A program made the position numbers and the translations under genes. Below the pieces are notes generated by a model, which ran no database searches, was not told the DNA's origin, and worked only from the letters and a program-made list of their open reading frames with translations. Positions 44,037 through 62,906 of a stretch of DNA of 64,000 bases are shown piece after piece. Every line of letters starts with the position of its first letter. The stretch's first letter is position 1. Source of the DNA: Sphingomonadaceae bacterium PASS1 (GTDB lineage Bacteria > Pseudomonadota > Alphaproteobacteria > Sphingomonadales > Sphingomonadaceae); NCBI GenBank assembly GCA_002255985.1, contig NKIR01000010.1, positions 48,248-112,247 on the forward strand. The letters run 5' to 3'.

Positions 44037-44112
44037 GGGCCCTTAGCTCAGTCGGTAGAGCAACTGACTTTTAATCAGTAGGTCGCTGGTTCGAACCCAG
44101 CAGGGCTCACCA
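44037..44112 (+). tRNA. tRNA-Lys (anticodon TTT)
   Basis: The full cloverleaf is visible: acceptor GGGCCCT/AGGGCTC (one G-T pair), D-stem GCTC/GAGC, anticodon stem ACTGA/TCAGT with loop CTTTTAA, T-stem GCTGG/CCAGC with loop TTCGAAC, and encoded CCA at 44110-44112. Its 3' portion is the integration site of the genomic island. Confidence 0.97.
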
Positions 44113-44114
44113 TA
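44061..44114 (+). repeat. Left attachment-site repeat (tRNA-Lys 3' part)
   Basis: This 54-bp stretch, from the end of the tRNA D-stem through CCA plus two bases, is identical to 63053-63106. It forms the intact 3' end of the functional tRNA gene, so it marks the left island boundary. Confidence 0.95.
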
Positions 44115-44166
44115 TATTTCAATGGTTTACGTCATTTTGAATTAATGGTGAGGAAATGTAGGTAGG

Positions 44167-44188
44167 AAAAGGTTTCACCTAGGTTTCA
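44167..44188 (+). repeat. Putative integrase arm site, left
   Basis: A 22-bp sequence containing AGGTTTCACCTAGGTTTCA is repeated exactly at 62907-62928. The inner unit AGGTTTCA occurs twice, 11 bases apart. Each copy lies near an island end, as expected for integrase arm-binding or excisionase sites. The function is inferred. Confidence 0.65.
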
Positions 44189-44251
44189 CGGTCCTCATGC
44201 AGCCGCTTAAAATGCCGCTGCGGTAGGATGGTCAAAAACACCCCACCCCCT

Positions 44252-44341
44252 TCAAAAACCTAACCAACTAGACCCCACCGGGGTGCCACCCCCCTATTCT
44301 GAGATATGGGACCCACAGTTCCTTCTTACATATTATTCTGC
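44252..44341 (+). repeat. 90-bp imperfect direct repeat, left copy
   Basis: This matches 47443-47532 with few changes; the longest identical run is the stretch ending TTCCTTCTTACATA. It lies just downstream of the helicase gene, and its partner lies upstream, so the pair brackets the helicase cassette. Other positions in 44115-44418 hold the arm site but no gene I can support. Confidence 0.8.
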
Positions 44342-44418
44342 TCGGTTGATTGCGCGAAAGTCATTGCGAGGTAGAGCAAGTCAACTCAAAGTGGCGACCA
44401 GCTTCGATATATCATGGA

Positions 44419-47205
44419 CTATCTGGCTACCCACACAAAGCCAAGGGCATCTAAACGGCTGCGGCGGTCTTCAGTAAGCTGATCACGTTTTCTTCTTTGC
44501 CATTTAACCCACGTACCAAGGTTAATCTGACCCTCTTTGTACAATGCCGGAACTCGGCAATGCCCCTCACGAGCTTTGTAGACTTCAAGATGCCTAAGCC
44601 CCTCCTCCCACTTATCAATGAGCGGGTCCCACACAAAGCCGAGAGCATCTAAGCGGCTGCGGCGGTCTTCAGTTAGTTGATCACTTTTCGATCTTTGCCT
44701 GTCGACCCATGCACCAAGCTTAAACTCACCTTCTGTGTGTAATAACGGAACTAGGCAGTGACTTTCACGAGCTTGGAAGGCTTCAAGATGCCTAAACCCT
44801 TCCTCCCACTGCTCAATGAGCGGGTCCCACACAAAGCCAAGGGCGTCTAAACGGCTGCGGCGGTCTTCAGTTAGCTGATCAGATCTTTGTTTTTGTTTAT
44901 TAATCCATGCACCAAGCTTAAACTCCCCCTCTTTGTACAATGCCGAAACTCGGCAGTGCCCTTCACGTGCTTTGAAGGCTTCAAGATGCCTAAACCCTTC
45001 CTCCCACTGCTCGGTGCGCGGGTCCCATACAAAGCCTAGAGCATCTAAACGGCTGCGGCGGTCTTCCGTTAGCTGATCGCCCGTTCTTCTTTGGATGCGA
45101 ACCCACTGACCAAGCCTAAACTCATCATCTTTGTACAATGCCGAAACTCGGCAGTGCCCTTCACGTGCTTTAAAGGCCTCTAATCGCCCAAACCAACTAT
45201 CCCAGCTATCGCCTACCTGCTCCAAGATCTGGGCGAAGATGCTTGCTTGAAGAACCTCTAAGGAGACCTCTGGGCCCAATATCTGGACCTTGTCGGCCAG
45301 CGCCTTTGGATTAAAGATTTCGCCTCGCCCTGACGCTTGCCTCAACTGTTGTATAATGTCGGTGAGTTCATCATCTTGTTCACGCATGGCGTTTAAAACT
45401 GCCATAACATCGATGTAATTGGTCCGCTCTAGCGCCTCTTCAATGGTCTCGCCCTCATCACGCTCGACAAACAAAGGTACGACGACATAGCCGACAGTTT
45501 TGTCCGAATTCCGAGGCTTGCGCATTGCTCTGCCTGCAGCCTGAGCGATATCCACCCTGCTGCTGCGCGGATCAACAAAGGCAACCATGTCCACAGCTGG
45601 AATATCTATGCCTTCAGTCAGGCACCGTGCATTGGTAATGAGTGCCTTTGGGGCGTCTCGAAAGGCGTTGAGGATTTGTTTTCGCTCAAAGCTCTTTTGC
45701 TCGCCGTTAGCGTGGAACGTTACAAAACCTTCGAGATATTGGCCGATGCCGCGGGCAGTGCTAGACGCAAATTCTTTCGCCATAGAGACGCGGCTATGAA
45801 AGCTAATCGCGCGCTTCGCCGCGGTTTCCTCAATAGCCCTTTGAACAGCAATCTGTTTTGCTACCCATGATGAGCCTATCTGCTCGCCCTCTACGAGTGT
45901 GATCCCGTGTTTTAGATAAAACTGGTTAACCTCAGCCCCTTCGACAACTGCGACTATAACCTTGTAGTCACAGATTATGCCTTGCCGGGCCGCCTCGCCG
46001 AAAGTGAGTGTGTAGGCTCGTGGACCATAGATGGCCTGATCATCCATTGAGACGACCTTTAGATTGCCGTCCTTATCCCTATTACCAAGCTGATAGTGCC
46101 TAGGCGTTGCGGTTAGAAATATTCGCTTTTTGATATCGATTTTCTCGTCGAGCAATGCGGTCGCAAAAAGTCCCGCTTGCGGCCCAGTCGTCTTATGCGC
46201 TTCGTCGAACACGGCGATATCGAACGGGCTAAGCCCCCGAACTCCATCGGCTACAATTGGGGATGACTGGTAGGTCGAAAAGACTATCTTAACCTTGCGC
46301 GACGAGCCCTCAAGGAAGTTGCGGACATCAGACGGATCGGTGCTGACAGGGAAGTCCACATCCATTCCGTTAAGTGCAATATCGTCATTGTTAGCTACCG
46401 TCTTATCTGAGCAGACGCAAATGAAGGTAAAATCATCACCCCAGCTATTATGTCGGCTCCACTCACTCAGGGTTTGCTGGACTAGCGTGAGCGACGGCAG
46501 AAGCACCAATACGGACTTCGGCCTCATCTTCTCGACGGCCCACAATGCGATCAAGGTTTTTCCGGTGCCACAGGCTAGCACAGCTGTTGTTCGGTCGTGC
46601 TCAGAAAGGGTATTACATATGCCGTCGATAGCTTCTTGCTGATACCGGTGTGGTGACAGCTTTTTTACAGGGATCGGCTTCTCTTTGAGCCACGCCTCTA
46701 TCGCTGCAAAGTCGTCGGCTGTCAGCTCGTCAAGGTCTACACCGCGGACCGATCGCATCCCGTCTCTATTGTTGGCATCAAGGGCAACATCATTGCAATT
46801 GGTGAAGATGATGCGATCCCGAGCGCGCTCGGTAATTCCGAGGAATGAAGCCACTTCATTATAGCTAAGAGATGGACGCCCAGATCGAAACTTGACCTGA
46901 TAGGGAACCAAATCGCCAGTTCGGCTCCTGAAGGTACCGTCAATACCGAGACTGCCATGGGCGGAGAGATTTAACTGCTCCCTAACTTCGAGAGGGACTT
47001 TTCCAACAACCCAGTTTTGTTCAACTTGGAACTTCTGCTGTGTTGCAATGTAACCCTCGATAAATATCTCGAAAGCATCGCCTAAGATTTTGGTATTCTG
47101 ATCTCCAAGTTTCGAGATACGCTCTTCAAGTTGAGAAAAGTTTTGCAATCCATCGAAAATACCATCTGCAATTATGGCTTTTGAAGTGTCCAATTGAGAT
47201 GGCAT
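44419..47205 (-). CDS. Mrr-like nuclease/DEAH helicase with four HA repeats
   Basis: A 928-residue superfamily 2 helicase, likely acting on foreign DNA. The N-terminus (about residues 25-160) resembles Mrr-type restriction nucleases: SLGIDGTF followed by LVPYQVKFR supplies the D and QxK of a PD-(D/E)xK site. Helicase motifs are LACGTGKTLIALW (Walker A), VFDEAHKTTG (DEAH), ITNARCLTEGIDIPAVDMVA and IAQAAGRAMRKPR (motif VI). From about residue 663 four tandem copies of a helicase-associated domain follow (LEAFKAREGHCRVSALYKE ... RRSRLDALGFVWDP), each 66 residues. The ATG has an AGGAAAG site. Such proteins often sit in defence loci, but no partner methylase is present, and self-protection is unexplained. 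Confidence 0.85.
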   Translation of the reverse strand: MPSQLDTSKAIIADGIFDGLQNFSQLEERISKLGDQNTKILGDAFEIFIEGYIATQQKFQVEQNWVVGKVPLEVREQLNLSAHGSLGIDGTFRSRTGDLVPYQVKFRSGRPSLSYNEVASFLGITERARDRIIFTNCNDVALDANNRDGMRSVRGVDLDELTADDFAAIEAWLKEKPIPVKKLSPHRYQQEAIDGICNTLSEHDRTTAVLACGTGKTLIALWAVEKMRPKSVLVLLPSLTLVQQTLSEWSRHNSWGDDFTFICVCSDKTVANNDDIALNGMDVDFPVSTDPSDVRNFLEGSSRKVKIVFSTYQSSPIVADGVRGLSPFDIAVFDEAHKTTGPQAGLFATALLDEKIDIKKRIFLTATPRHYQLGNRDKDGNLKVVSMDDQAIYGPRAYTLTFGEAARQGIICDYKVIVAVVEGAEVNQFYLKHGITLVEGEQIGSSWVAKQIAVQRAIEETAAKRAISFHSRVSMAKEFASSTARGIGQYLEGFVTFHANGEQKSFERKQILNAFRDAPKALITNARCLTEGIDIPAVDMVAFVDPRSSRVDIAQAAGRAMRKPRNSDKTVGYVVVPLFVERDEGETIEEALERTNYIDVMAVLNAMREQDDELTDIIQQLRQASGRGEIFNPKALADKVQILGPEVSLEVLQASIFAQILEQVGDSWDSWFGRLEAFKAREGHCRVSALYKDDEFRLGQWVRIQRRTGDQLTEDRRSRLDALGFVWDPRTEQWEEGFRHLEAFKAREGHCRVSALYKEGEFKLGAWINKQKQRSDQLTEDRRSRLDALGFVWDPLIEQWEEGFRHLEAFQARESHCLVPLLHTEGEFKLGAWVDRQRSKSDQLTEDRRSRLDALGFVWDPLIDKWEEGLRHLEVYKAREGHCRVPALYKEGQINLGTWVKWQRRKRDQLTEDRRSRLDALGFVWVAR
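44431..45215 (-). repeat. Four 198-bp tandem repeats within helicase gene
   Basis: The segment ACACAAAGCC begins at 44433, 44631 and 44829, and the matching ATACAAAGCC at 45027, an exact 198-bp period. Each unit encodes one helicase-associated domain. High identity between units shows recent duplication or ongoing homogenisation. Confidence 0.9.
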
Positions 47206-47260
47206 CAGTCTTTCCTAAACATCCCGTTCTCGTGCTACTCGCTCCAAACCAGTCCACGCT

Positions 47261-47365
47261 TCACACAACCACAATAGCCACGATAGCAAGTGGCGCAACT
47301 AGGATGATCCAACCCCAAGCGTCGGTATTTGTCGAGCGTTTTCTGGCTTCCATTTGGGCTACCAT
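47261..47365 (-). CDS. Possible 34-residue membrane peptide
   Basis: A short frame upstream of the helicase gene. It encodes a charged N-terminus (MVAQMEARKRSTNTDAWG) and one hydrophobic helix (WIILVAPLAIVAIVVV). It starts just after the decayed HGG-type fragment. No strong ribosome site is seen, so it may be chance; the charge and membrane-helix layout is the only support. Confidence 0.3.
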   Translation of the reverse strand: MVAQMEARKRSTNTDAWGWIILVAPLAIVAIVVV

Positions 47366-47388
47366 GGCATCCACATGACCGTGCTGCC

Positions 47389-47433
47389 TCGCATGATAGT
47401 TTCTGGCTTTCGGGCGCCATTATAGCGGCATCT
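47389..47433 (-). pseudogene. Fragment of HGGxSTG-like small protein gene
   Basis: These 45 bases match 54417-54461 inside the intact gene at 54252-54563 with about seven changes, covering the segment around CRYHGARKPETIM. Homology stops abruptly on both sides and the frame is broken by a stop. Confidence 0.7.
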
Positions 47434-47442
47434 GCCGCAGCC

Positions 47443-47532
47443 TCTCCAAAAACCTACCCAACCGAGACCCCACCGGGTTGCCCCCCCCTATTAAGGCTGA
47501 TGGGACCCACAGTTCCTTCTTACATACTATTC
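47443..47532 (+). repeat. 90-bp imperfect direct repeat, right copy
   Basis: Partner of 44252-44341. Together they bracket a 3.2 kb unit holding the helicase gene. The stretch from here to the next gene (47533-47799) has no gene or motif that I can support. Confidence 0.8.
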
Positions 47533-47799
47533 TGCACGTTCGGTCAGCTGCGTTTGCCCCTCGGACATTTCTGTCTAGGTGGCGTCCACACCTCGACTGG
47601 TTAGCTCGAACAGTGGGCAAGCACGGCTAGGGAGCCAACTGTCACAGCTAACGCCCTCAGGCCTCACCACGCTTGGCATCCGCAACTAGCCCCACGCCAG
47701 AACACTAAGGGCAGCCGAAAGCAGCTGCTTGTTGCGCAGCGTCAGCAAACGCCGACGTTGCGCAAACAATGCTTTCTTAATTTTTGCTGCGGCAATTAG

Positions 47800-48309
47800 T
47801 TACTTTTCAGATGAAGTCGAAATAGCTGCTGCTAACTGATCTGGGCGAAGCGCTCCCTCGCCGGGTCCCATATCTTCTGCGTCTACTAGTTTCAACTTAC
47901 CGTGCTTGCGGAACTCAGCCTCGGTGGAGGGCGCAAGATCGGGGCGGGCTGCCATGATCCCCATCTTCATGCGGCAGGTGGCGTACTGAGTCTCGCCAGC
48001 CTCGACCTCGAGCGCGATGCTATCTTTTGCTTCGCTCTTTACCGTGAATTCGTGGCGTCCGGGTCGAGCTACCATTACGAAGTAGCGACCAGCGCCAAGC
48101 GAGCTAACCTTCTGGCCGTTCTCGTTGACCGAGCACCCAATGGCAAAGCCCGTGCCCCCAGCTCGAAAGAACACCACTTGGCCCTGTCCTTCTGGCGGTG
48201 CAGGAATAACGATGGAGGCGGCTTTCATCTCATTATTTTCGGCTGCTAGCGCTGGCGCGGACGAAATGAACAGTGCAATTACTGTAGTCGCGAAGACTTT
48301 ACGGATCAT
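47800..48309 (-). CDS. Secreted DUF2846-like protein
   Basis: A 169-residue exported protein with signal peptide MIRKVFATTVIALFISSAPA. The middle reads QGQVVFFRAGGTGFAIGCSV, SLGAGRYFVMVARPGRHEFT and VEAGETQYATCRMKMG. This is the pattern of DUF2846 proteins, small periplasmic or lipid-anchored proteins of unknown role. It is last in the minus-strand secreted cluster and overlaps the gene upstream by 4 bases. Confidence 0.7.
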   Translation of the reverse strand: MIRKVFATTVIALFISSAPALAAENNEMKAASIVIPAPPEGQGQVVFFRAGGTGFAIGCSVNENGQKVSSLGAGRYFVMVARPGRHEFTVKSEAKDSIALEVEAGETQYATCRMKMGIMAARPDLAPSTEAEFRKHGKLKLVDAEDMGPGEGALRPDQLAAAISTSSEK

Positions 48310-48989
48310 GGATTAATTCCTTTCTTATCAGAAGCGTTGTTATTGTGCATAGAACCGGGAGTGCCCAACTCTGCGCCCACTGTATCGAGCCAGAACGCCT
48401 CTGCCGTCTTAGCGTCTGCAAAGGCTCCCATAGGTACGTCTATGTGCTTGCCGCGGATGAACAGCGCCGGAAGCCCCACGGCGACGGCGGCTGCAAACGC
48501 CAGATCCTGTTGGTCGCGGCCTGCTCCGTTGAATTTCATACTCCTAAGCCGCAATTGTCTGTTGCCTAGATTTAGATATCTGGCGGCAAGCACCAGCTCA
48601 CCACCGACACCGACGCCGGTCTTTTTGGCGTGTATAATTTCGCCTCGACCTTTAGTACCGGCGGGGATCAATTCCCTACCGTCGATGACGACGGGATAGG
48701 CTAGCGAGATCCCAAAAGTCTGCCCAGTGACACTGGTTCGGCTACTTAGCGCCTCAGTCAATTCGATGCGCACGGGGGTCAAAGATGGTATGCAGGTGCC
48801 TTGAAGTTTTTTAGCGACGGCGACGGCGCAGGCGTCGCTAGGTGCAAGGGGTTTATCAGTGGCGTTGCTTGGCAACAAAATTACAATTGGCGGTGATATC
48901 TCGTCTACGGGCACTTGTGCTGATGCGGTACCAACTAACCCAATCTCGCAGACAGCGAAAAAAAGGGAGGCATATCCAATTTTGAACAT
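48306..48989 (-). CDS. Secreted protein with beta-rich domain, unknown
   Basis: A 227-residue exported protein; signal peptide ends near VGTASAQ. The core reads LTPVRIELTEALSSRTSVTG, FGISLAYPVVIDGRELIPAG and TKGRGEIIHAKKTGVGVGGE. The product of 49032-49736 has the same order of elements, so the two are paralogous at domain level. A likeness to the C-terminal TrbI/VirB10 beta region is possible but weak. A GGGGGG ribosome site precedes it, and it is coupled to the DUF2846-like gene. Confidence 0.6.
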   Translation of the reverse strand: MFKIGYASLFFAVCEIGLVGTASAQVPVDEISPPIVILLPSNATDKPLAPSDACAVAVAKKLQGTCIPSLTPVRIELTEALSSRTSVTGQTFGISLAYPVVIDGRELIPAGTKGRGEIIHAKKTGVGVGGELVLAARYLNLGNRQLRLRSMKFNGAGRDQQDLAFAAAVAVGLPALFIRGKHIDVPMGAFADAKTAEAFWLDTVGAELGTPGSMHNNNASDKKGINP

Positions 48990-49031
48990 GACTAAATGCC
49001 CCCCGATAAACTCAATTCAACAAGGAAAGGG

Positions 49032-49736
49032 CTACTCAGAAACCTTAAGGACGCATTCGCCGAAGCTCGGTGTTCCGGGTTTGAAGCCAAGGTCCGCGCA
49101 CTTACTTTTAGCTTGAGACAAGTCACCTAATGGCTTTTGATCTACGTTAGCTGATGGTGGTGGCGCGCGGCGCACTGCAAAGGATAGATCTTCGTCTATG
49201 AATGCACTGATGACACCGCCTGCCGGTATCCGCGCGCTTGTACCAGTGACGAAAAAGCCAACAACCGGAACAAGTGCTACCGCAGCAACAACGCCAGCTG
49301 TACCTGTTACGCCTTTGTCATCGAATGATCCCGACATGCGGACGGTGCGGCCATTCAGCGACATATTGATTATGCGCCCCTCAATCTTTCCTGACTTTCC
49401 CCACATGCCTTTGTTGCGGACAGCGGTGAGTTCGCCAGTTACTGGAGTGCCTCTTGGGATTACCGTGACACCATCCACTGTGATGTCTTCAGCAACTTCA
49501 AGACGTGGGCGGTCGCCTACTCTTGATGCCTTGTCTTCAGTCGTAATTTCATTAAGAAATTTTACACGTACCTGAGCGCCGCCTCGTAATGTTCGCGTCT
49601 CTGTTCCGGCAGTCATCTCTGATGTCATAGGCACTGCGACTGCTGGTGCGGAGGATATTGGTTCGACTGAAGTTGTGCTCTGAGCATAAACAGAAGTACC
49701 AGCCAAAAGCAGGCTGCTAAACATCAGAATTTTCAT
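49032..49736 (-). CDS. Secreted protein with C-terminal C-GF-GT-F-C motif
   Basis: A 234-residue exported protein (MKILMFSSLLLAGTSVYAQ). The central domain (VRVKFLNEITTEDKASRVGD, LEVAEDITVDGVTVIPRGTP, MWGKSGKIEGRIINMSLNG) parallels the next gene's product. A hydrophobic Ala/Val segment (GTAGVVAAVALVPVVGFFV) follows. The C-terminus is CADLGFKPGTPSFGECVLKV, one of five copies of a shared two-cysteine motif in this cluster. No function is known. Confidence 0.65.
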   Translation of the reverse strand: MKILMFSSLLLAGTSVYAQSTTSVEPISSAPAVAVPMTSEMTAGTETRTLRGGAQVRVKFLNEITTEDKASRVGDRPRLEVAEDITVDGVTVIPRGTPVTGELTAVRNKGMWGKSGKIEGRIINMSLNGRTVRMSGSFDDKGVTGTAGVVAAVALVPVVGFFVTGTSARIPAGGVISAFIDEDLSFAVRRAPPPSANVDQKPLGDLSQAKSKCADLGFKPGTPSFGECVLKVSE

Positions 49737-49875
49737 TATTTGGACCCTTAGATTAGACCATCAGCTTATTCAAAACGCAGAGAGACTACAAGCTAAATAA
49801 ACGGAACAGATTGGCCGTTAAATTAAACATTCCAATTCCAAAGCGTTACAGCGCTTCAGCCATTAACTCCAAAAA

Positions 49876-50619
49876 TTATCTGCAACTCATGTATCTCGCT
49901 GCAGTGTTGTAGCTGCAATAAATTTGATTGCCGTTGGGGTCACGAATTGTATAATTCTGGATCGCTGGCGGTGACGGCGGGAGTGTGGGTGGCTTTGCAA
50001 TCGGGTAACCATTAGCAGCAGCAAGCCCCTCATTCAGCGCACCAAGGAACGACGGCGAGGTAGAATTTGCCATACCGGCCCCCAGTCTTCCAATCGCCTC
50101 CCATTTTCGTCTATCTTTTTCCTTCTTGATAGCTCTTTGCTGTTCCTCATAAGCAGCTACCTGCTGCTGATATTGCGCCAATTGAAGCTGATGTTGCCGC
50201 TCTGCGAGCATAGCTTGCTGCTGTATCTGGTCGAGTTGCATCAGGCATTGCCCAAAGGCTTGAGTGCCTTTTTTGAAGCTGTAGTTTGCACAAGTTTGTT
50301 CATTGGGCGAAAGTGGAACACTTGGCGCAACTTCTCTTGTAGCTGCCTTGACGGCAACTGGTGAGCGCTTCGATGAAGCTTGTGCTGAGGTGGATTTAGC
50401 AGTGGATGATGTTGAAGCTGTGGACGTCGGAATATCGCGGTCGACTAGTTCTAAAACGCAGCTACCGAATGCTTCTGTTTTTGGTCTAAATCCGATATTC
50501 TTGCAGATCTTTTCCTCTGCAAGCGTGTTTTTAGGTTGAGCAGCTACTCCGTCCGAGCCCAACAAAATCCAAGCAAATCCGAAAACCGTCATTAGAAGAA
50601 TTTTATTGGGTTTATTCAT
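49876..50619 (-). CDS. Secreted coiled-coil protein with two C-GF-GT-F-C motifs
   Basis: A 247-residue exported protein (signal peptide MTVFGFAWILLGSDGVAAQ region). Copy one of the motif is CKNIGFRPKTEAFGSCVLEL; copy two is CANYSFKKGTQAFGQCLMQL. A Ser/Thr-rich linker separates them. A glutamine-rich coiled coil follows (QQQAMLAERQHQLQLAQYQQ...). The C-terminal tail is NYTIRDPNGNQIYCSYNTAA with a further cysteine pair. It lies 10 bases after the adhesin-E-like gene and is probably co-transcribed with it. Confidence 0.65.
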   Translation of the reverse strand: MNKPNKILLMTVFGFAWILLGSDGVAAQPKNTLAEEKICKNIGFRPKTEAFGSCVLELVDRDIPTSTASTSSTAKSTSAQASSKRSPVAVKAATREVAPSVPLSPNEQTCANYSFKKGTQAFGQCLMQLDQIQQQAMLAERQHQLQLAQYQQQVAAYEEQQRAIKKEKDRRKWEAIGRLGAGMANSTSPSFLGALNEGLAAANGYPIAKPPTLPPSPPAIQNYTIRDPNGNQIYCSYNTAARYMSCR

Positions 50620-50629
50620 AGAATTTTTT

Positions 50630-51565
50630 CTACTTAGAAATTTTTAAAACACAATTACCGAATTTTTCGGTCCCAAGTTTAAAACCTAGCTCGGAGCACT
50701 GGCGCTTTGCAGCTTCGATAGCACGAAGGGCATCTGACGAATTACCGGTATCCGTGGGTGCTAGCTCCTGCCTCGGAATGTTGAAATCTTGTTCAATCAC
50801 AACCGTGTCTGGGTGTAATTTTTTGCACATCCAGTCAACATAGATAGGGTCCCCTTGATAAGGTGCCGCTGATGTGGACGTTCGTTGGCTGCTCACCATG
50901 CCCGTTGCGCAGTCGACATATGATTTTGTATCGCTTCTCCCGCCCGCTATCAAATACGAAAAAACAATGTTTTTTCGGCTACTTTTGTAGATGGTGTTAT
51001 TTAAGATAACGACTTTGCCCGCAAAAGACTTCCCTTGGCCGACACCAACTGCATCAATCCCTGAGCCTTCAGCAGAAGCGGTTGGGCAAACGTGCCGTGC
51101 AAAATAGTTAGGCATAGTAAACTGAGGACCCGATTGGCTGTTCCCAATATTTTGATCGAGCTGGTTCCATGCCGTTCCACCGATTATTTTACGTGGCCTA
51201 AATCCGCCGGGATAGCGCCAACCAATGTGGGCATATCTTCTTGCACCGCAGTCAAATTCAAACGTTTGGATTGCTCTAGTGATGTTAATTTTCCGACCAT
51301 AATTAAGGCTGTTCGTTTCGAACATTGGAAACGCGACATTTATATGAAAAACGTTGTCCCTTATTTTCACGATTGAATAAGGGTCAACGAAGTATGGGTT
51401 ACCGTAAACGTCAGTTATCGCGATAGTCCATTTGCCGGAATTGAGCATCTGTTGCGCAGCTGCCTCATTGGATATTTCAGCATGCGCGCTGCTAGCCGTC
51501 AGGCTCATCATTCCAAGGAGCGTAAACCATCCAAATTTTAACGGCAAAAGCTTGTTTATGTTCAT
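50630..51565 (-). CDS. Secreted adhesin-E-like protein with C-GF-GT-F-C motif
   Basis: A 311-residue exported protein (KFGWFTLLGMMSLTASSAHA). The region WTIAITDVYGNPYFVDPYSI, QTFEFDCGARRYAHIGWRYP and a later VCPTASAEG follows the plan of surface-adhesin-E-like domains, with two conserved cysteines. A second, similar half (NTIYKSSRKNIVFSYLIAGG, YVDCATGMVSSQRTS) may be a degenerate repeat. The C-terminus is CSELGFKLGTEKFGNCVLKI. A GGAGG site precedes the start. It seems to head the operon 51565 to 47800. Confidence 0.6.
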   Translation of the reverse strand: MNINKLLPLKFGWFTLLGMMSLTASSAHAEISNEAAAQQMLNSGKWTIAITDVYGNPYFVDPYSIVKIRDNVFHINVAFPMFETNSLNYGRKINITRAIQTFEFDCGARRYAHIGWRYPGGFRPRKIIGGTAWNQLDQNIGNSQSGPQFTMPNYFARHVCPTASAEGSGIDAVGVGQGKSFAGKVVILNNTIYKSSRKNIVFSYLIAGGRSDTKSYVDCATGMVSSQRTSTSAAPYQGDPIYVDWMCKKLHPDTVVIEQDFNIPRQELAPTDTGNSSDALRAIEAAKRQCSELGFKLGTEKFGNCVLKISK

Positions 51566-51747
51566 ATACTTTTCAGCCTCCGCAGGGACCGCTCCTCGTT
51601 AGATAATTTGAGACTTATATCGGGTTGTAACAGCTAGGTTTTCGGTAAATCTGTTGGTCGACATTAGGCGGTGAGCTTGCGACGTTGCAAGCCGCGATAT
51701 TCGATAGTCGATCGTTTTATCCTTTCCCGTTTTTGGATGATGCCGTG

Positions 51748-51820
51748 ATGTCATTCAGACCTTTATTTCTTCCCCCTCGTGCGTGTCGATGCCGGTGCTA
51801 GCATCCCTAGCTGAGCCATT
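51748..51820 (-). pseudogene. Second fragment of HGGxSTG-like small protein gene
   Basis: These 73 bases match 54244-54316, the 3' end of the intact gene, with scattered changes. The surrounding region 51566-51929 contains no other feature that I can support. Confidence 0.7.
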
Positions 51821-51929
51821 TTGAAGGCACGCATGAGCGGCTGGTGAACGCGTAAAATAGGCAAATCCCAGCATGGCTCACGTATGCTCGGGTTCGCCCT
51901 CAAAAAACGCAAAGTTTCTAGATGCGCAG

Positions 51930-52538
51930 CTATTTCGTTTGACTAAGAAGACGAATTTGCTCTGACGCGCAGCTGCGAAACTCGGCAGATCCCAGCTCGA
52001 AGCCAATACGCTCGCAGCGGTTCAAAGCTGCATCAAGGATGCTATCAGCAATAGTTTTTTGCGGCATAGGACTTTTTGGAGCTGAAACTTTTTTAGTGTT
52101 CGGTGTTGAAAGCCCCGTCGCACCCAGACCCTGCGACGTTATTGGAGTAGCCGCACCCCCCATCGCAACGGAACTTTTAACAGTTTCATTCAGCGCACCA
52201 CTATGTTCAGGGTCTTTTTTTGATACCGAAACTGCAGACGCATCTGCGACGCTCACGGGGCGTGATGATGATGATGATGTCGCACTGCTTATTTCATTAG
52301 CTTGGAACGGAGGTGCTTTGATTGGATACGGACATACTTGGCTCAATAACAGGCGCAATTGAAGTCCGTTGCTCAAAATGCAGTTTTTAAAACCAGAACC
52401 TAAATCATGCTCCGATAACAAATATACAGGGACAGTTGTGATTTGCGACAAAGGCGCAGTCGGTTTGGCGGCCAGCTCGCTTGTAAGTGCCACAACTGCC
52501 AGCAACACCACACCCGTGCTTTGACTTATTACGCTCAC
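51930..52538 (-). CDS. Secreted protein with C-terminal C-GF-GS-F-C motif
   Basis: A 202-residue exported protein (signal peptide GVVLLAVVALTSELAA). The middle is Ser/Ala/Pro-rich and probably disordered. The C-terminus, CERIGFELGSAEFRSCASEQ, is the most divergent copy of the shared motif. The gene is separated from the main operon by a 364-base gap with a decayed gene fragment. Confidence 0.55.
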   Translation of the reverse strand: MSVISQSTGVVLLAVVALTSELAAKPTAPLSQITTVPVYLLSEHDLGSGFKNCILSNGLQLRLLLSQVCPYPIKAPPFQANEISSATSSSSSRPVSVADASAVSVSKKDPEHSGALNETVKSSVAMGGAATPITSQGLGATGLSTPNTKKVSAPKSPMPQKTIADSILDAALNRCERIGFELGSAEFRSCASEQIRLLSQTK

Positions 52539-52765
52539 AGCATGTCCCTTCTTAACGCATGGCTAACTATAGCCGATATAAAAACCGTTATCAAAATTTG
52601 AATTAAACGCAGCCTACAGCGGCTGCAGCCCAGCTACTATGAAGTTTTAGGTATTTCGCAGATGGTAAAGGCAACGTGTCCATACTTGATGAAATCGTCG
52701 AAATCGATTGCACAAAAGCTTACGTCATGGTTAGCTTTCACCCGATCAGTTAGTAGGATATTTCT

Positions 52766-54049
52766 GTGATTAAGCTTCATTTTGCAGTCAAGCCCTTTCA
52801 GTTGCCCTTTCAGCTTCGAGTGGTGCTTGTCATATTTGCATTTGTTGGCCACAGCGCAGCAAATGCGCAGGTATTTCTCAATGCCTCAGATGTAATTACG
52901 GCTAGTGATTATCCTCAGAATTCCTGGGATCGCGCTGATCAGGGCGTAACAGAATTTAAGCTGAATTTATCTTCAAACGGGCGCCCTAGCGCGTGTAGCG
53001 TTGAAAAATCATCAGGGTATGAAGAGTTGGATGCAGCTGTGTGCAGCCTGATGCTGCAACGCGCGATGTTTGATATGTCCAGTGTTTCCAGCATGTCACC
53101 CAGTCCGACTTATTCAAATCGCGTCAGGTGGTCCATTCCGATAACCCCGCCCCGCGCGCTTGTGTTTGGAGTGACAGTCAAGTCTCTTCCCGTCCCATCG
53201 GATCTGGCAAAAACTAAGTGTGAGTATTCAGATAAAGAATGGCGCATAGTGGCCGCTGGAACGCCCTGCGCACGCCCACTTCCCAAATTAGTTCTAAAGA
53301 AAAATGGAACAACTATTCGTTCTAATATATTTGAACAGTACATAATTGAGGCGGATAAAAACGAAAACGCTGAAGCTGCTTTCAACCTTGCGATATTACT
53401 TATAGAAAATAATTACAAGCAAGGCGTAAGATACATGGAAAAGGCATCAGCTTTAGGAAATCCATTAGCTTCTGCATCTCTTTGTAATTTTTATTCTGAA
53501 AAAGAATACAGTAGGCTTAAACTTGTAGATTTCAATCCAAATCAAGCTGTCGAATATTGTATTTTAAGCTATAAACAGTCCTACAATTATCCCGCGGTAA
53601 CAAATTTCAATAACATCGTTATTAAGTATGGCAGCCAACTGAACAAGGATGTTCTGGACCGCGCGAAAGCTATCATAAAATTTAAACCCCAAACAGCTTA
53701 CGCAAGAAGGCTGACAGCTGGAAGTGACATAGTTGGGCCTAACGACTACCCCAAAAGGGACAATGCAAATCAAGTTGGGGGTGTAACGGTAGCTGTGTAT
53801 GGCGTAACACAAACCGGCAAGGTCGGAACCTGCTTGATAGCTCAATCGACATATAGCTACTCTCTTGATCAGAAAGCATGCACCCGCCTCAAAGACGTAG
53901 CGATATTTTCGCCAGCAGTAATTGAAGGCAAACCGGCTGTGCAATGGTTGAGCCAAAAAATTACGTGGAACCCTGGGGCCCGAAACAAACCCTCAGCAGG
54001 TGGCGTCATTATGCAAATTCTTCTTGGTGCTCTGGGCGCTGCGATTTGA
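52766..54049 (+). CDS. Exported protein: TonB-C-like, Sel1-like, TonB-C-like
   Basis: A 427-residue protein starting at GTG with an AGGA site; signal peptide ends at HSAANAQ. Residues about 45-125 read SDYPQNSWDRADQGVTEFKL and GRPSACSVEKSSGYEELDAA, close to the TonB C-terminal fold. The middle has Sel1-like helices (AEAAFNLAILLIENNYKQGV, YMEKASALGNPLASASLCNF). A second TonB-C-like part follows (NDYPKRDNANQVGGVTVAVY, GKVGTCLIAQSTYSYSLDQK). There is no membrane anchor or Pro-rich stalk, so it is not a classical TonB. It is divergent from the secreted cluster and AT-richer than the core genome. Confidence 0.6.
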   Translation: MIKLHFAVKPFQLPFQLRVVLVIFAFVGHSAANAQVFLNASDVITASDYPQNSWDRADQGVTEFKLNLSSNGRPSACSVEKSSGYEELDAAVCSLMLQRAMFDMSSVSSMSPSPTYSNRVRWSIPITPPRALVFGVTVKSLPVPSDLAKTKCEYSDKEWRIVAAGTPCARPLPKLVLKKNGTTIRSNIFEQYIIEADKNENAEAAFNLAILLIENNYKQGVRYMEKASALGNPLASASLCNFYSEKEYSRLKLVDFNPNQAVEYCILSYKQSYNYPAVTNFNNIVIKYGSQLNKDVLDRAKAIIKFKPQTAYARRLTAGSDIVGPNDYPKRDNANQVGGVTVAVYGVTQTGKVGTCLIAQSTYSYSLDQKACTRLKDVAIFSPAVIEGKPAVQWLSQKITWNPGARNKPSAGGVIMQILLGALGAAI

Positions 54050-54251
54050 ATGATGTTTAAGCTACACCAGCTGCGCACTAAGCAGCAGTTTGAACCGATA
54101 CCGACTTGACGCTACGCTTGATACTCTAGTTTTTGCAGGTGATGCCAGTGCGTCTGTTGCTGCAAATGTCGTGGCAGCGGATCTTCGGAGGGTGGGTTTA
54201 CGTCGTCAAAACATTTTGTATTTGTGGGGGCAAAATGGTGCATGATGTCAT

Positions 54252-54563
54252 TCAGACCTTTGGCTTCCTGCCCCTTTTGCGCGTTGAACCAGGCGCTAGC
54301 ATCCCCAGCTTAGCCATGAGGTTTTCTGTCTCGTGGAAGAACACTGCCATTTCATGGCGCTCCTGCCGTTCATGCTGCGTCTGGCCTACACCCTGATAGT
54401 TCCAGTGGACGGTAGATCGCATGATAGTTTCCGGCTTACGTGCGCCGTGATAGCGGCAGACCTTCATTCCATAGGCGGCTGGGTTGCGACATTGGTCACC
54501 GCGTGCCTTGCACTTGGCTTTGCAGCGTTTTGTTTTGCCTGAGAGGATGTTCGGAAGGGGCAT
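54252..54563 (-). CDS. HGGxSTG-like small Cys/His protein
   Basis: A 103-residue basic protein. Cys14, Cys18, Cys25, Cys36 and His39 (RCKAKCKARGDQCRNPAAYG, then VCRYHGARKPETI) form a likely zinc site, as in small HGGxSTG-type proteins common on phages and mobile elements. A helical C-terminal half follows (RQERHEMAVFFHETENLMAK). It starts 20 bases after mcrC in the same direction. Two decayed fragments of the gene lie elsewhere in the island. Confidence 0.65.
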   Translation of the reverse strand: MPLPNILSGKTKRCKAKCKARGDQCRNPAAYGMKVCRYHGARKPETIMRSTVHWNYQGVGQTQHERQERHEMAVFFHETENLMAKLGMLAPGSTRKRGRKPKV

Positions 54564-54583
54564 AGTGAGCGATCTGCGCGAAT

Positions 54584-55633
54584 TCAGAGATACGGACTAG
54601 CAATAAGTCCTAGCAAACGCTGAGAAATATCAGACCAGGGACGGCCCAGGTCTACGGTGGCCAAACGTACTTTGCTTCCCTGAATGGCGAATTGCGCGTC
54701 GAATTGCGATCCCACTTGCGGATAGAGCAACATGCCATCGAGATGCGTGCCCAAAGGAATTCTGACATGGTGGTTTTTCAGATAGCTGAAGAGCTGGTAT
54801 AGGTTTTCCGATCTAAAACTGGTCGCGCCGTGATGTATTTGGAGCGCTTCAAGGTAGTACTTGGTGTCGATGATGAGCTGTCGTCGGGGCGATCGAAGGA
54901 ATACGTCTACGCGCATCGATGGCAAACGATCGCCCTCATTTTGCTCGAGCGGCAATGCATCCCAACTGATTGTTAGTGGTTCAACCTTAAACTCTGACTG
55001 CTCCAGCTTATAGAAATTTCGAACAAACGCCTCGAAGACGCGGGCCATCTCGCGCTCATTACGGGCGATGTCCTGGAACTTATAAGCGCCTGCCCCAGGA
55101 ACCGGCAGCATCATATCAAAGGCCAGCTGTGCCACTTTGAGTAGAAGGTCGTAGTATGCGGAGTTGCGGTTTAGCTGCACGCGGGCGAAGCAGCTGTGTG
55201 TGAGCCGGATGTCGGATACGTCGTGCATCCGGCGAACTAGGCTCTGTGTTTCAGCCTTCAAGGGAGCAGCGAGGCTTGGCATCGTTGCCAGCCGGCGAAG
55301 GCTCGCCTTCAAGATTTGGTTGTGAAGTACGTCGTGGCTGAGCTCGTCATAGGAGCAGTGTAGGCGCTTGATTTTCTGGGCTTGCAACCTCAGCGATGCG
55401 CCTATTTCGATGTGGCCGCGCACGGTTGCCAATTCTTCCTCAAACGGAACATATACCCGATCCAGCCCGCGTCGAAAAAGCGATCGCATCCCATTAACGA
55501 GAACCCGGGTAAGAAGGTTAGGTAAATCCGGGCTAGCCTCTGCGTCAACCGCAAGAGCTTTTCCTTCTGCAAAGCGCTCCCACGCATAGCAGTAGAGGTA
55601 ATAAAGGTTCGCGATCGGGATGACGGAGGTCAT
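54584..55633 (-). CDS. mcrC: McrC-type restriction nuclease subunit
   Basis: McrC is the nuclease partner of the McrB motor in type IV restriction of modified DNA. The 349-residue protein has PIANLYYLYCYAWERFAEGK, VRGHIEIGASLRLQAQKIKR and ending with a PD-(D/E)xK-like core, VDVFLRSPRRQLIIDTKYYL, followed by ENLYQLFSYLKNHHVRIP. It overlaps mcrB by 4 bases. Confidence 0.9.
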   Translation of the reverse strand: MTSVIPIANLYYLYCYAWERFAEGKALAVDAEASPDLPNLLTRVLVNGMRSLFRRGLDRVYVPFEEELATVRGHIEIGASLRLQAQKIKRLHCSYDELSHDVLHNQILKASLRRLATMPSLAAPLKAETQSLVRRMHDVSDIRLTHSCFARVQLNRNSAYYDLLLKVAQLAFDMMLPVPGAGAYKFQDIARNEREMARVFEAFVRNFYKLEQSEFKVEPLTISWDALPLEQNEGDRLPSMRVDVFLRSPRRQLIIDTKYYLEALQIHHGATSFRSENLYQLFSYLKNHHVRIPLGTHLDGMLLYPQVGSQFDAQFAIQGSKVRLATVDLGRPWSDISQRLLGLIASPYL

Positions 55634-57540
55634 AGCCCTTCAAGTAGCCGTGCTTCCCACGCTGTTGCTCGGTCTTCAGCGTCGTACCAGTACTCGCGCA
55701 GGAGCGGAGCGATCTCGGTCTGAATGACGCGGCGGAACCACGCCCGGTCATCTTCTGATGGCATGGGCTTACCGCAGAAGAAGCTATGACCGATAGCAAA
55801 ACCAGATCCGAGGTTAATCGTATCCGCGACAATTTCCTGGTTGAGAGCCTCAATTCGATCCGTGACTAGCTCAATTATAGTATCGCCAATTTCGTGGGCC
55901 CGCAGTTGAGCCTTAAACTTTTCAGATCTCAGTTTTGGTTTGAGATCGACGAACGCGAACCGTCGGCGCAGTGCATAATCCACCACAGCCAATGAGCGGT
56001 CGGCTGTGTTCATCAACCCCATCAGATGGACGTTTGCAGGAACGTGGAATGGTACGTTGCCAGAGGCGAGCTTCATGGCCCACTCTGGGCCGCGTTTGTC
56101 GCTCTCGATGAGCAGCATAAGCTCTCCAAGTATCTTGCTCAGGTTGCCCCGGTTGATTTCGTCGACGACGAATACGTAGGTATTGCTAGGGTCTGCTTCT
56201 GCCCTCCGGCAAAACTGAACAAACTTTCCGAATTCCAGCTTGAAGCCTTGCTCAGTAGGCCTGAAGCCCTCCACGAAATCTTCATAGGAGTAACTCTGGT
56301 GGAACTGGACGAACTCCACACAGTCACGATTTTCCTGACCCATTAGCGCGAAAGCAAGTTTGGTTGCCGCAAACGACTTACCGCCGCCCGGGGGCCCCTG
56401 AAGAACCACGTTCTTCTTCGCGCGCCACAGGAGCAAGATGGCTTCGATCTCAGCTGGATCGAGGAACAACGATTGGAGCGCATCTTCGATCGAATATGGC
56501 ACCACCTCTGCTGGCAAATCGCCGGACACGTCTACTTCCTCGAGGTCTATCAAGGGAAGAGGTTTTCCAGCCGCATGGATATATGATCGATTGAGGATAG
56601 CCAGAAGCGTCGGTGTTGCCTCCGTCAGATAGGCTCCCTGATTGAGCTCCAGCTTACGATTGAAAAAAAGGCCCTTGGCGCCACTTTCAACCAACTCGGC
56701 GAGCTCGGCGGCAAACGGCTCTACCTTGAATAGCTGGTCGCGAAGTAGCGGCGGTTGGAGCTCAACATAGTCCTGCAGTTCGATCCTATAGCAGGGGCCT
56801 TCCCATTCTGTCCCTACCAGCCCTTGAAATGTATCATCAGCGCGCTCGGCAGCCATTGAAATACCGGTAAAACCACGGTTGTCGGTTAGATGCAGCACAA
56901 TGTCGCCGGGTTCTAACCGCCGCATGTTCGCGTATATATCACCACCGTTCTTAGAGGCTTGCGGCGACCACAGCGCTTGACCCAGAGCATGGTCTCCTGT
57001 TTCGCGGTCCGCCCGACCGGTCACCAATGTCTTTTCGATCCATACTGAGGCGGCTTTAGGTGTTTCGGCATTTCGGTACTTGTCTCGCCAATAGGGCTTT
57101 GCAAGGAACCAACTATAATCCTGGGGCTGTTCAGCAAAGATGAAGGCCGTCAGGTGTTGGGCTTCTTCGTCACCCATCGGCAACTGCCATATGGTCGAGC
57201 GATACGTGTAAAAGTACCAGTCGGCACCCTCATATCCGTGGTCCCATTCTACGTTGACACGTTCACCATTGCCCGGATTTTGTATGATCGTGCCTCGAGC
57301 TTTGATGCGCATGACGGATACCGATTGTCCTTGCACATCGAACGGCAGGTCATGCTTCTGAACAAAGGTCGACTTGATCGCGATTAGGTCGCCGGGCTGC
57401 ATAGCTTTCACTAATGCTTGCTCCGTGTCAGATGGTTTGACAATCTCCCAGATGCCTTCGGCCAAAAACCGAGCAGTTTGGTCGTCATTTCGGCCAAAAG
57501 CAGATCCAACAATCCAGTTATTCAGATGCGAATTAGACAT
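55630..57540 (-). CDS. mcrB: McrB-type AAA+ motor with two N-terminal sensor-like domains
   Basis: The 636-residue motor of a McrBC system. The AAA+ core from about residue 350 has Walker A VVLQGPPGGGKSFAATK, the McrB signature FVVDEINRGNLSKILGEL and LMGLMNTADRSLAVVDYALR with RRRFAF. Before it lie about 340 residues with two probable PUA/EVE-like modules: NNWIVGSAFGRNDDQTARFL...VKAMQPGDLIAIKSTF, and GGDIYANMRRLEPGDIVLHL...GFTGISMAAE. Such modules read modified bases in known McrB proteins; the base here is unknown. The start at 57540 is preferred to 57570 as the domain begins there. Confidence 0.88.
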   Translation of the reverse strand: MSNSHLNNWIVGSAFGRNDDQTARFLAEGIWEIVKPSDTEQALVKAMQPGDLIAIKSTFVQKHDLPFDVQGQSVSVMRIKARGTIIQNPGNGERVNVEWDHGYEGADWYFYTYRSTIWQLPMGDEEAQHLTAFIFAEQPQDYSWFLAKPYWRDKYRNAETPKAASVWIEKTLVTGRADRETGDHALGQALWSPQASKNGGDIYANMRRLEPGDIVLHLTDNRGFTGISMAAERADDTFQGLVGTEWEGPCYRIELQDYVELQPPLLRDQLFKVEPFAAELAELVESGAKGLFFNRKLELNQGAYLTEATPTLLAILNRSYIHAAGKPLPLIDLEEVDVSGDLPAEVVPYSIEDALQSLFLDPAEIEAILLLWRAKKNVVLQGPPGGGKSFAATKLAFALMGQENRDCVEFVQFHQSYSYEDFVEGFRPTEQGFKLEFGKFVQFCRRAEADPSNTYVFVVDEINRGNLSKILGELMLLIESDKRGPEWAMKLASGNVPFHVPANVHLMGLMNTADRSLAVVDYALRRRFAFVDLKPKLRSEKFKAQLRAHEIGDTIIELVTDRIEALNQEIVADTINLGSGFAIGHSFFCGKPMPSEDDRAWFRRVIQTEIAPLLREYWYDAEDRATAWEARLLEGL

Positions 57541-57703
57541 ACGGCTAAAATTCCTGAGGATGCAGGCCAATCATTGAGCATACTGATATCGGAGCGGCAA
57601 GCACTAATGCAGATCAGTGCAAGTGCAGAGTTACTCGACTAACCCCCGCTCTTCTGGTTAGCTTGGCTGTGCAGTGTTTTTTGTTTTTATCTGAGGTGAT
57701 GTT

Positions 57704-57805
57704 GTGGAGGGGCAGGCTATTTTGCCTTTTGCTACACCAGCCGAGGTGCGCGCCAGACGGGCACTGGCTGAATTGTTCGCTGACCTCATGGAAACCAACT
57801 CCTAA
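57704..57805 (+). CDS. Possible 33-residue protein
   Basis: A GTG-started frame with GAGGTG five bases upstream. It encodes EGQAILPFATPAEVRARRAL then AELFADLMETNS, a helix-friendly sequence. It lies in the gap between mcrB and the next gene. The ribosome site is good but the short length leaves it uncertain. Confidence 0.35.
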   Translation: MEGQAILPFATPAEVRARRALAELFADLMETNS

Positions 57806-58208
57806 CAAACTCTTCCGCGTCAGCTGCGCCGACACTACCCTTAGCTGTCACGGGCCAAGCTAAAGCCACGCAATCCTCAAACCCCTCTGGAAAGGTGCGA
57901 TAGGGGCGATACCAACTGTGGTGGTCAAAAACGTCTGAGGCAAATTCATCAATTCGGTCGTGGAGAAGTTTGAGTTGATCCGGCCAAAGAATGCCCCAGT
58001 GCCGAGCGACAAGCTTCCTGAGCAGGGACGGGGTGACCGGAAACGGAATGTTGAACCGTTTAGGCGGGTCTAACGGGAAGGCGATGGTGAGTTCGATCGT
58101 GGGGCCTTTATGCACTTTGAGTTGGCGACCGGACCATACTGGCCGGTCAGGAGCAAAACCTGAGATCGCTATCACACAATGGTCAAAATGCAGCTTGTAG
58201 CGGCTCAT
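57786..58208 (-). CDS. Hypothetical protein
   Basis: A 140-residue cytoplasmic protein with no signal peptide or membrane segment. It begins MSRYKLHFDHCVIAISGFAP and has PVTPSLLRKLVARHWGILWP and VFDHHSWYRPYRTFPEGFED. No family is recognised. The start at 58208 (or 58217) is uncertain. It is upstream of mcrB on the same strand, with a 245-base gap. Confidence 0.6.
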   Translation of the reverse strand: MSRYKLHFDHCVIAISGFAPDRPVWSGRQLKVHKGPTIELTIAFPLDPPKRFNIPFPVTPSLLRKLVARHWGILWPDQLKLLHDRIDEFASDVFDHHSWYRPYRTFPEGFEDCVALAWPVTAKGSVGAADAEEFVRSWFP

Positions 58209-58336
58209 AATTGGCACCGACGCGTAGTTCCATTGGCAACATTAGGTGACATTTGACGTACCTCAAGCCCATACAAGCGCGAGGATGAGGCAGAGACTGA
58301 GGGCGTTTTTAAATTCGCCTGACCCCTGAATGAGTT

Positions 58337-58430
58337 GGACCGAAAAGACCGAAAGAGAAGAAAGGGACTTTTCGGTCCAGCGGACCGAGACCGAAAAGAC
58401 CGGGCCCCCTTAAGGGGCCGGTCTTCGGTC
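58337..58430. repeat. GACCGAAAAG repeat cluster with hairpins
   Basis: GGACCGAAAAG at 58337-58347 and its exact inverse CTTTTCGGTCC at 58368-58378 form an 11-bp inverted repeat. GGTCCAGCGGACC at 58374-58386 is a small hairpin. GACCGAAAAGACCG at 58389 and its near inverse ending CTTCGGTC at 58430 form a long GC-rich hairpin around CCCCCTTAAGGGG. The block lies 16 bases after the RepA-like gene. It may be a terminator or part of a replication origin. Confidence 0.7.
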
Positions 58431-58446
58431 AGCTTAATTTTGGTTT

Positions 58447-59976: not shown

Positions 59977-60677
59977 CCGAGGACTTCCGCCATCCGATAT
60001 TTGCGATCTTCAGTTTCCAAGCCCTTCCGGGCAATTGTACCGGGCACTTTAGTAATGCGCGAAGCGTTGTAGACGCTGGTATCGATTTTGATGTCCGCGG
60101 TATCATGCTTCCGTGCAAGGCCGAGAAGAAAATTCCTACAAACTGATTTTTCATCTTCATCGTTTGGTACGTCATCTAGCGGGAAGTAGATGTGCACCCC
60201 GTTGCCAGAGCAAACTACCATAGGTTCTAAGTCGTTATCATAGAAATAGGGTCCCTCGATGTTAACACAGCCAAAGTCGTAGATATCTTCCATTTCGTCT
60301 TGAGCAGCTGGCTGGTCAGTTACCGCGCGGTCGATATCGACCAATAGGAGCCGACGGCACTTGATGTCTGCATCTTTTACAGCAAGCCCGTTGTATTCAT
60401 CCCCAGCAAAGGTTGGGCTAATCGGGTTCTTCACGATATAAATGTTATAGCCAATGTGGTTAAGGCGGATGGCCGCTTGCTCAAATGCTTTTTGGCGGTC
60501 AACCAAGTTCGGATATGTCGCCGCATTGAACGTAATGTTTTTTACAGGCTTACTGCTCGGCACGCCCTTCGGCCAGATTGCCCGCAAAGATATGGGCGCG
60601 TCTTGGTCGATCTTGAAGATAGTCCACATTTCCGAAATGGCAGCCTGCTGCTGCGCTAGAATTGGAGGGAACATCAT
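59973..60677 (-). CDS. Archaeo-eukaryotic-type primase domain protein
   Basis: A 234-residue protein with AEP-primase motifs: LLLVDIDRA (motif I, DxD), GNGVHIYFPLD (motif II, with His) and IDTSVYNASRITKVPGTIAR (motif III region). It would make primers for the element's own replication with the downstream RepA-like helicase. The ATG at 60677 overlaps the alpA stop by one base and has GGGGGAC upstream, so it is preferred to the ATG at 60716. Confidence 0.8.
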   Translation of the reverse strand: MMFPPILAQQQAAISEMWTIFKIDQDAPISLRAIWPKGVPSSKPVKNITFNAATYPNLVDRQKAFEQAAIRLNHIGYNIYIVKNPISPTFAGDEYNGLAVKDADIKCRRLLLVDIDRAVTDQPAAQDEMEDIYDFGCVNIEGPYFYDNDLEPMVVCSGNGVHIYFPLDDVPNDEDEKSVCRNFLLGLARKHDTADIKIDTSVYNASRITKVPGTIARKGLETEDRKYRMAEVLG

Positions 60678-62896: not shown

Positions 62897-62906
62897 ACTT
62901 CATCTC

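Follow-up and report, generated by a model that had tools for sequence, protein, structure and literature searches.

The 64,000-nucleotide stretch of contig NKIR01000010.1 from Sphingomonadaceae bacterium PASS1 that was analysed here (hereafter the window) contains an integrative island with a minus-strand cluster of six genes, named A to F, for proteins with signal-like N-termini. Four of the products, C, D, E and F, share a small two-cysteine module, which forms a C-terminal tag in C, E and F and occurs as two internal copies in D. The explanation favoured here, tentatively and with somewhat less than even confidence, is that the module is a docking tag: a hairpin, likely closed by a disulfide, by which the secreted but mutually unrelated C, E and F are likely held on D, a coiled-coil protein. 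What can be read from the sequences themselves is the module, three position classes of its copies, the presence of the tag on C, the adjacency of tag genes and D-like genes, and fusions of E-type domains to the tail of D; the signal peptides of the carriers are predicted.

A two-cysteine module in four predicted-exported proteins

The initial annotation had reported five copies of the pattern C-x3-[GS]-F-x2-[GK]-[TS]-x2-F-x2-C in four exported proteins. Across all six frames of the 64-kb window the pattern does occur exactly five times, each time in frame in a minus-strand open reading frame (ORF), namely at 49053-49100 in C, 50245-50292 and 50458-50505 in D, 50651-50698 in E and 51969-52016 in F, and export of the four products is predicted. 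Sec-signal-like N-termini were judged by eye in all four; the automatic rule described below recognised those of C and D but not those of E and F. The copies had also been placed mostly at C-termini, which holds for C, E and F (three of the five) but not for D, in which both copies are internal.

All four genes lie on the minus strand. Gene C (49032-49736) encodes a domain of a large, mostly untagged family followed by the tag (module at 49035-49121). In gene D (49876-50619), the proposed scaffold, the profile and a structure model place copy 1 at 50437-50520 and copy 2 at 50224-50313, the latter continuing into a 66-residue Gln-rich helix that is followed by C-terminal strands with two cysteines. 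Gene E (50630-51565) joins a weakly Adhesin_E-like N-terminal domain to a tag (50633-50719) that ends 6 residues past its second cysteine, and gene F (51930-52538) encodes a low-complexity protein with a tag (51948-52037) that ends 12 residues past that cysteine.

A profile built from the five window copies, which match it by construction, found no sixth one among the 3,072,882 bases of the genome, where the next-best hits had E >= 1.2. When 34 copies are aligned, both cysteines are invariant and the glycine nearly so, around a consensus of C-x3-GF-x4-T-x2-F-x2-C; the pattern search and this alignment both give one cysteine pair with 14 residues between the cysteines. Profile searches show that the 16-residue motif is the core of a genuine module of about 29 residues. 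The annotation knew of no role assigned to such motifs, and no family of Pfam, NCBIfam or PHROGs reached its cut-off across the motif in proteins A-F, while the library matches of 23 other carriers were to lipoprotein leaders, to Sel1/TPR repeats or weak. DUF6491 (PF20101) was considered because three of ten motif lipoproteins match it at residues 2-43, and it was dropped, since these matches span the leader plus the beginning of the motif at 15.0-16.9 bits against a cut-off of 27.5; weak matches to it also occur in 3 of those 23 carriers. A search of the PDB by sequence gave nothing usable, and searches for the motif strings in full text and in the wider literature, covering open-licence papers only, found no account of the module among the papers listed.

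Distribution and link to export

In relatives of the window's genome the module is rare. The genome draws overlap in part, some genomes recurring between them. Two genomes gave a profile match in a mixed set of 98 others, and one of the two (G040) was missed by a larger profile and not used; the larger profile found the module in 0 of 44 other congener genomes. It was present in 3 of 395 other genomes of the same order, in 31 of 384 of the same class and in 18 of 397 others of an even draw over the phylum, 16 of those 18 belonging to the same class.

Carriers are predominantly exported by prediction, as the annotation had anticipated when it opposed enrichment among signal-peptide proteins to random occurrence in cytoplasmic ones. 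Among 83 motif ORFs (domain E < 0.005) from the fetched loci and the window, 74 pass a signal-peptide rule, 40 as lipoproteins and 34 as Sec substrates, against 91 of 416 other long ORFs (Fisher p ~1e-31), where the rule, of our own making, uses whichever of several starts fits best, the controls are open frames rather than annotated genes, and related sequences are not independent. The count excludes repeated loci from the window's own genome and loci matched by chance (L001-L008, L011, L015-L017); L010 and L014 gave zero motif ORFs, and L020 was read by eye. Most failures of the rule, inspected by eye, still show a signal peptide or lipobox. In loci L009-L046, 36 of 40 motif ORFs pass, 30 of them as lipoproteins, and in the phylum-wide loci L138-L158 the figures are 18 of 21 and 17; L153 is, by eye, an apparent chance match. 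One motif-ORF set kept 30 of 31 members, the cut-short L038 being dropped, and a later alignment used 22 of these 30 together with L020.

The commonest carrier is a small alphaproteobacterial lipoprotein in which the module lies a short way past the lipobox. Two motif ORFs, mostly for small lipoproteins, lie close together in eight loci (L025, L026, L027, L031, L033, L034, L035 and L038), and an IMG/VR viral contig (L078:5500-6189) codes for a small lipoprotein that combines the module with a pair of cysteines at its C-terminus.

The C-terminal tag as a subclass

A search with a narrower alignment (A6) yielded 31 loci in named genomes and one in a viral contig, among them four Polynucleobacter, two uncultured betaproteobacteria, nine loci labelled Pelagibacteraceae, and Caulobacteraceae and Erythrobacteraceae bins. 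Together with the window and relatives of E, these give 35 proteins that end in the module. Exactly six residues follow the second cysteine in 21 of the 35, and 7 to 12 in the rest; the loci were found through a tag pattern, so that the tag sequence was selected for and its distance from the end was not. With signal and tag removed, the 35 proteins fall into 16 groups (BLASTP, 1e-3), the largest with 9, 6 and 4 members, of which 15 are usable, the N-terminal stretch of the L076 group being empty. Domains on module carriers include HiPIP (L058), MORN (L047, L054, L077) and Sel1. The HiPIP electron carrier with its C-terminal tag (L058:948-1466) adjoins a D-like gene, and a second tag protein of L048 groups with it. 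Nine Pelagibacterales-type loci (L056, L064-L066 and L068-L072) have one related tag protein each. The tag region of E, run against a protein database, yielded three close relatives among 9 candidates.

C illustrates how a tag may be gained. Of its 3355 relatives, the 120 best include 8 with the tag and 112 without, and four of these untagged ones stop where the linker of C starts. Within the genus, 14 of 44 other genomes hold relatives of C (E <= 1e-10), with alignments reaching residue 210 of 234 at most, and the genes of the two closest congener relatives are flanked by unrelated genes. Such homology patterns suggest that the module was added to a member of a mostly untagged family.

A short homologous C-terminus with conserved cysteines on diverse exported proteins is also what would be expected of a sorting or surface-anchoring signal of the CTERM kind, recognised, processed or modified by an enzyme, and the annotation had mentioned a sorting step. 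The tags lack the membrane helix and basic tail of such signals: in 29 tag proteins, no 19-residue stretch of the final 60 residues has a mean hydropathy above 0.72, on which ground CTERM-type sorting was dropped, and no basic cluster was found at the ends of the 35 tag proteins. Further, D has the module internally, many small lipoproteins have it close to the N-terminus, and all copies of the window's genome sit in one cluster. A strictly C-terminal sorting signal is therefore not supported, and sorting in any form is judged improbable.

Three classes of copies

For a class test, 24 copies from 8 loci were sorted as tag, D copy 1 or D copy 2 and compared by normalised BLOSUM62 scores; the tag of L075 did not fit the search expression, and only one copy was found in each of the D-like proteins of L049 and L075. 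Copies of the same class at different loci score 0.549 on average (84 pairs), as against 0.360 for different classes at the same locus (25 pairs) and 0.366 for different classes at different loci (163 pairs). When labels were shuffled within loci, the observed class difference was reached in none of 5000 shuffles. Because same-class copies are more alike between loci than copies of different classes, three kinds of copy are, on sequence likeness, kept across alpha- and betaproteobacteria; this likeness is partly one of descent, as the window shares ancestry with L050 and L052.

The same grouping bears on the possibility that the tail of one gene was recently duplicated within the island, with no wider meaning. 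Neighbouring genes do have similar ends, but the profile finds matches in other genomes with E down to 1e-10, and 4e-16 for D-like copies, and the copies group by class between loci, not by operon. Contradicted by these results, recent duplication was dropped and retains a negligible probability.

D-like proteins, their neighbours and fusions

All 57 relatives of D that were found carry the module, 42 of them in two or more copies; the alignment of D comprised 38 of the 57 and five locus proteins. The tail of D consists of the second copy, the Gln-rich helix, a Gly-rich stretch and a C-terminal cysteine pair, and the N-termini joined to such tails vary: some are a further copy of the module, some consist of Sel1 repeats (P0020, P0051, P0057-P0059), and some are related to the N-terminal domain of E. 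The last kind is seen in the four fusions P0047, P0049, P0053 and P0055, in which a domain that matches this part of E at 32-35% identity (111-125 residues aligned, E 3e-15 to 3e-17) is combined with the module and the tail of D.

A tag gene adjoins a D-like gene on one strand in 7 of the 32 tag loci, 31 of which gave motif ORFs for this count (L061 gave none). The D-like protein has two copies of the module in L047, L048, L050, L052 and L058, and one was found in L049 and L075. Tag gene and D-like gene are separated by 10 bases in the window (E-D) and by 9 bases in both L050 and L052, and D is 29 and 32% identical to the Polynucleobacter D-like proteins. An alignment of the C-terminal module of D (A5), for which 13 of 30 D tails were used, was run against the genome and viral contigs and gave 63 and 336 pattern stretches, respectively, with zero confirmed relatives; as it missed the D-like genes of L050 and L052, this absence is not informative. 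D had no match among phage and plasmid records.

Predicted structure and possible role of the cysteines

An AlphaFold2 model of D from 44 sequences has a mean predicted local distance difference test score (pLDDT) of 67 and a predicted template modelling score (pTM) of 0.40. It shows helices at residues 32-41 and 48-60 for copy 1 and at 104-111 and 119-184 for copy 2, the last continuing as the 66-residue helix, with three strands at the end; for both hairpins and the long helix, block means of pLDDT range from 76 to 89. In a model of E (mean pLDDT 42, pTM 0.39), the tag forms helices at 277-292 and 300-310 with block means of 72 to 77. The copies of the module are accordingly predicted to be helix-turn-helix hairpins. 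Foldseek found no match to the D model in the PDB at E <= 0.001.

By residue number, the modelled hairpins have one cysteine on each arm, as a disulfide would require, and the hairpin is likely closed in this manner. The only cysteines of C are the two of its tag, and therefore any disulfide of C would have to be internal to the tag or link two chains. Metal sites built on two cysteines are common, and the two invariant cysteines might instead coordinate a metal (for instance copper or mercury) or a cofactor in the periplasm. One of 23 motif proteins matches MerG, a phenylmercury-resistance model, at 2.7e-21, a match that may owe nothing to the motif, as MerG is presumably a Sel1-type protein. 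No further invariant ligand is seen among the 34 copies, however, and the genome encodes a DsbB relative; a lone cysteine pair in an exported protein more often forms a disulfide. A metal or cofactor site is likewise judged improbable.

Docking tag or structural hairpin

The proposal in the initial annotation that a shared tag implies a common partner holds up in part: it is a fair inference from the sequences because the tag subclass is distinct, was apparently added to C and is encoded beside a D-like protein. Under the docking explanation, the carriers would be exported and the disulfide formed in the periplasm. D might then self-assemble through its long Gln-rich helix, and the hairpin of each tag would contact a hairpin of D, giving a complex in the periplasm or on the outer membrane. 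In this way the island would gather envelope proteins, in a set that can change, on a single carrier.

The strongest competitor, with a substantial probability that nonetheless falls short of that given to docking, is an autonomous structural hairpin with no dedicated partner, that is, a stable lipoprotein fold pasted onto proteins by island recombination to cap or stabilise a terminus. D-like neighbours would then result only from the co-travelling of related exported genes. Single copies in many small lipoproteins and the varying position of the module among proteins are in keeping with such a hairpin. The fixed end of the tag in most tag proteins and the class-wise conservation suggest more than a cap, as do the repeated adjacency to D-like genes and the fusions to the tail of D. 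Docking is preferred because adjacency and fusions favour a link with D.

Several observations weigh against docking on D. Many lipoprotein carriers stand alone, and in 25 of the 32 tag loci a D-like neighbour was not found, although some contigs end close by. Whole-genome searches for 12 of the 32 tag loci gave between 1 and 4 copies per genome; seven of these genomes have more than one copy, always within that one cluster, but in the other five a single tag was seen with no second copy and no D-like gene, which also speaks for the structural hairpin. From such single tags it follows that D is not the sole partner, if it is a partner at all. The expectation that hits would cluster was borne out incompletely: all copies are together in 14 of 19 multi-copy genomes (the window's genome, the seven tag-locus genomes and six genomes of the class draw, in which they form neighbouring small genes), and in the remaining five (G667, G1001, G1004, G1120 and G1161) they lie on different contigs, as a partnerless hairpin would allow. 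Further, the tag protein of the Pelagibacteraceae is found among the same neighbours in the four loci that were listed (L065, L066, L069 and L071), in the manner of a core gene. Finally, the tag of F is divergent and ends late, and the models of D and E are middling to poor.

A bolder extension of docking, which is unlikely on present evidence, is that the system is a mobile periplasmic assembly kit in which the coiled-coil scaffold D, with its two disulfide hairpins, recruits any exported protein that has acquired the 29-residue tag C-terminally, so that islands of freshwater and marine bacteria could exchange envelope cargo by attaching a single tag. Such cargo would comprise adhesin-like, HiPIP, MORN, Sel1 and other domains, and the kit would amount to a dockerin-like principle built from one self-complementary disulfide hairpin.

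If docking is correct, a testable role is gained for the module of many uncharacterised lipoproteins and of the proteins kept by the Pelagibacteraceae, and the means by which envelope proteins are known to be grouped would include a tag free of any membrane anchor. Such a compact one-disulfide hairpin could also be of use in building periplasmic complexes. Even if only the structural hairpin holds, the profile lets annotators spot a module that has no cut-off match in Pfam, NCBIfam or PHROGs in the proteins scanned.

The island and its other genes

The annotation had placed the cluster in a mobile island. An integrative island of about 19 kb (44061-63106) is inserted in a tRNA-Lys gene and bounded by exact 54-bp direct repeats; the left repeat (44061-44114, plus strand) lies within and just beyond the tRNA-Lys gene (44037-44112), and the right one (63053-63106, plus strand) is its exact copy. 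The direct repeats at the tRNA gene are accompanied by a tyrosine integrase with Phage_integrase and Arm-DNA-bind_3 domains (61637-62896, minus strand). G+C is 0.51 in the island vs 0.55 to its left. The genus is probably Sphingorhabdus or a close one, as the congener locus L111 encodes P0133, which is named at its source as a Sphingorhabdus profundilacus protein. This tRNA is present at 19 congener loci, none of which matches the right flank past the repeat; pieces resembling the left end of the island adjoin the tRNA in three (L123, L125 and L129), which suggests that this tRNA-Lys is a hot spot for islands. An integrase also occurs in 7 of the 32 tag loci, detected by Pfam in L047, L049, L050, L052 and L055 and by similarity to those in L074 and L076. 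An island with exported proteins is ordinary, because such proteins are often encoded by the accessory genome (PMC3506625); a shared tag on the exported proteins of an island is not.

Two exported proteins had been noted downstream in the same direction, and A and B do lie there on the minus strand, motif-free and with N-termini that are signal-like by eye. Gene A (47800-48309) encodes a DUF2846 protein (Pfam) and gene B (48306-48989) an untagged protein distantly related to C (24% identity in 127 aligned columns, E 5e-5 in a single comparison). The intergenic gaps are 364 bases for F-E, 10 for E-D, 139 for D-C, 42 for C-B and -4 for B-A. The gene at 52766-54049, oriented divergently to F, encodes a protein with a signal-like N-terminus and TonB_C domains that may belong to the cluster.

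Elsewhere in the island, a McrBC-type protein (54584-55633) and an AAA_5 protein (55630-57570) lie side by side and are likely a restriction pair. Downstream of the cluster, a ResIII/Helicase_C/HA protein is encoded at 44419-47205; a relative (L048:7269-10256; 33% identity over 927 columns) lies directly downstream of the tag cluster of Polynucleobacter bastaniensis, and the two proteins each match restriction models of PADLOC. Near the tag clusters of two Polynucleobacter lies a gene (L047:6503-8011 and L048:10833-12086) whose product has no Pfam match and is 78% identical between them.

Comparison with known systems

In PMC1569441 and PMC11980579, the PEP-CTERM and MYXO-CTERM tags are described as short C-terminal homologies on diverse signal-peptide proteins, with a membrane helix and a basic tail, often with many carriers per genome and, for MYXO-CTERM, with a dependence on cysteine. 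The carriers of the module resemble these in being signal-peptide proteins by our rule (74 of 83 motif ORFs), and homology at the extreme C-terminus is present in the 35 tag proteins, though not in D or the lipoproteins. Unlike those tags, the present one has neither membrane helix nor basic tail, is a predicted helical hairpin and occurs in a single cluster in this genome.

The small lipoproteins of alphaproteobacteria, in which the profile finds this module a little beyond the lipobox, are mostly single and short, with some tandem pairs, and are without a D-like neighbour or a C-terminal tag. The adhesin-E-like domain named in the annotation survives as a weak likeness: Adhesin_E (PF16747) scores 12.2 bits on the N-terminal domain of E against a Pfam cut-off of 23.7, and membership was dropped on that score. 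The twin-CX9C proteins (CHCH; UPF0203/Mdm35) of oxidising compartments offer another small cysteine-bearing helical hairpin, to which the predicted fold of the module is similar. The module, with one pair of cysteines separated by 14 intervening residues, lacks their two CX9C pairs, and UPF0203 is matched weakly (0.0037) in only 1 of 23 motif proteins.

In principle, docking would resemble that of the dockerin tags on cellulosome scaffoldins, which contain calcium loops and are longer than the roughly 29-residue module. Dockerin and cohesin gave no Pfam row for proteins A-F up to E 1. The module differs from dockerins in being a much shorter, two-cysteine element and in occurring in both tag and carrier. 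The proposed likeness to dockerin and scaffoldin would lie in the use of one small module on unrelated secreted proteins, together with a carrier that has several binding modules.

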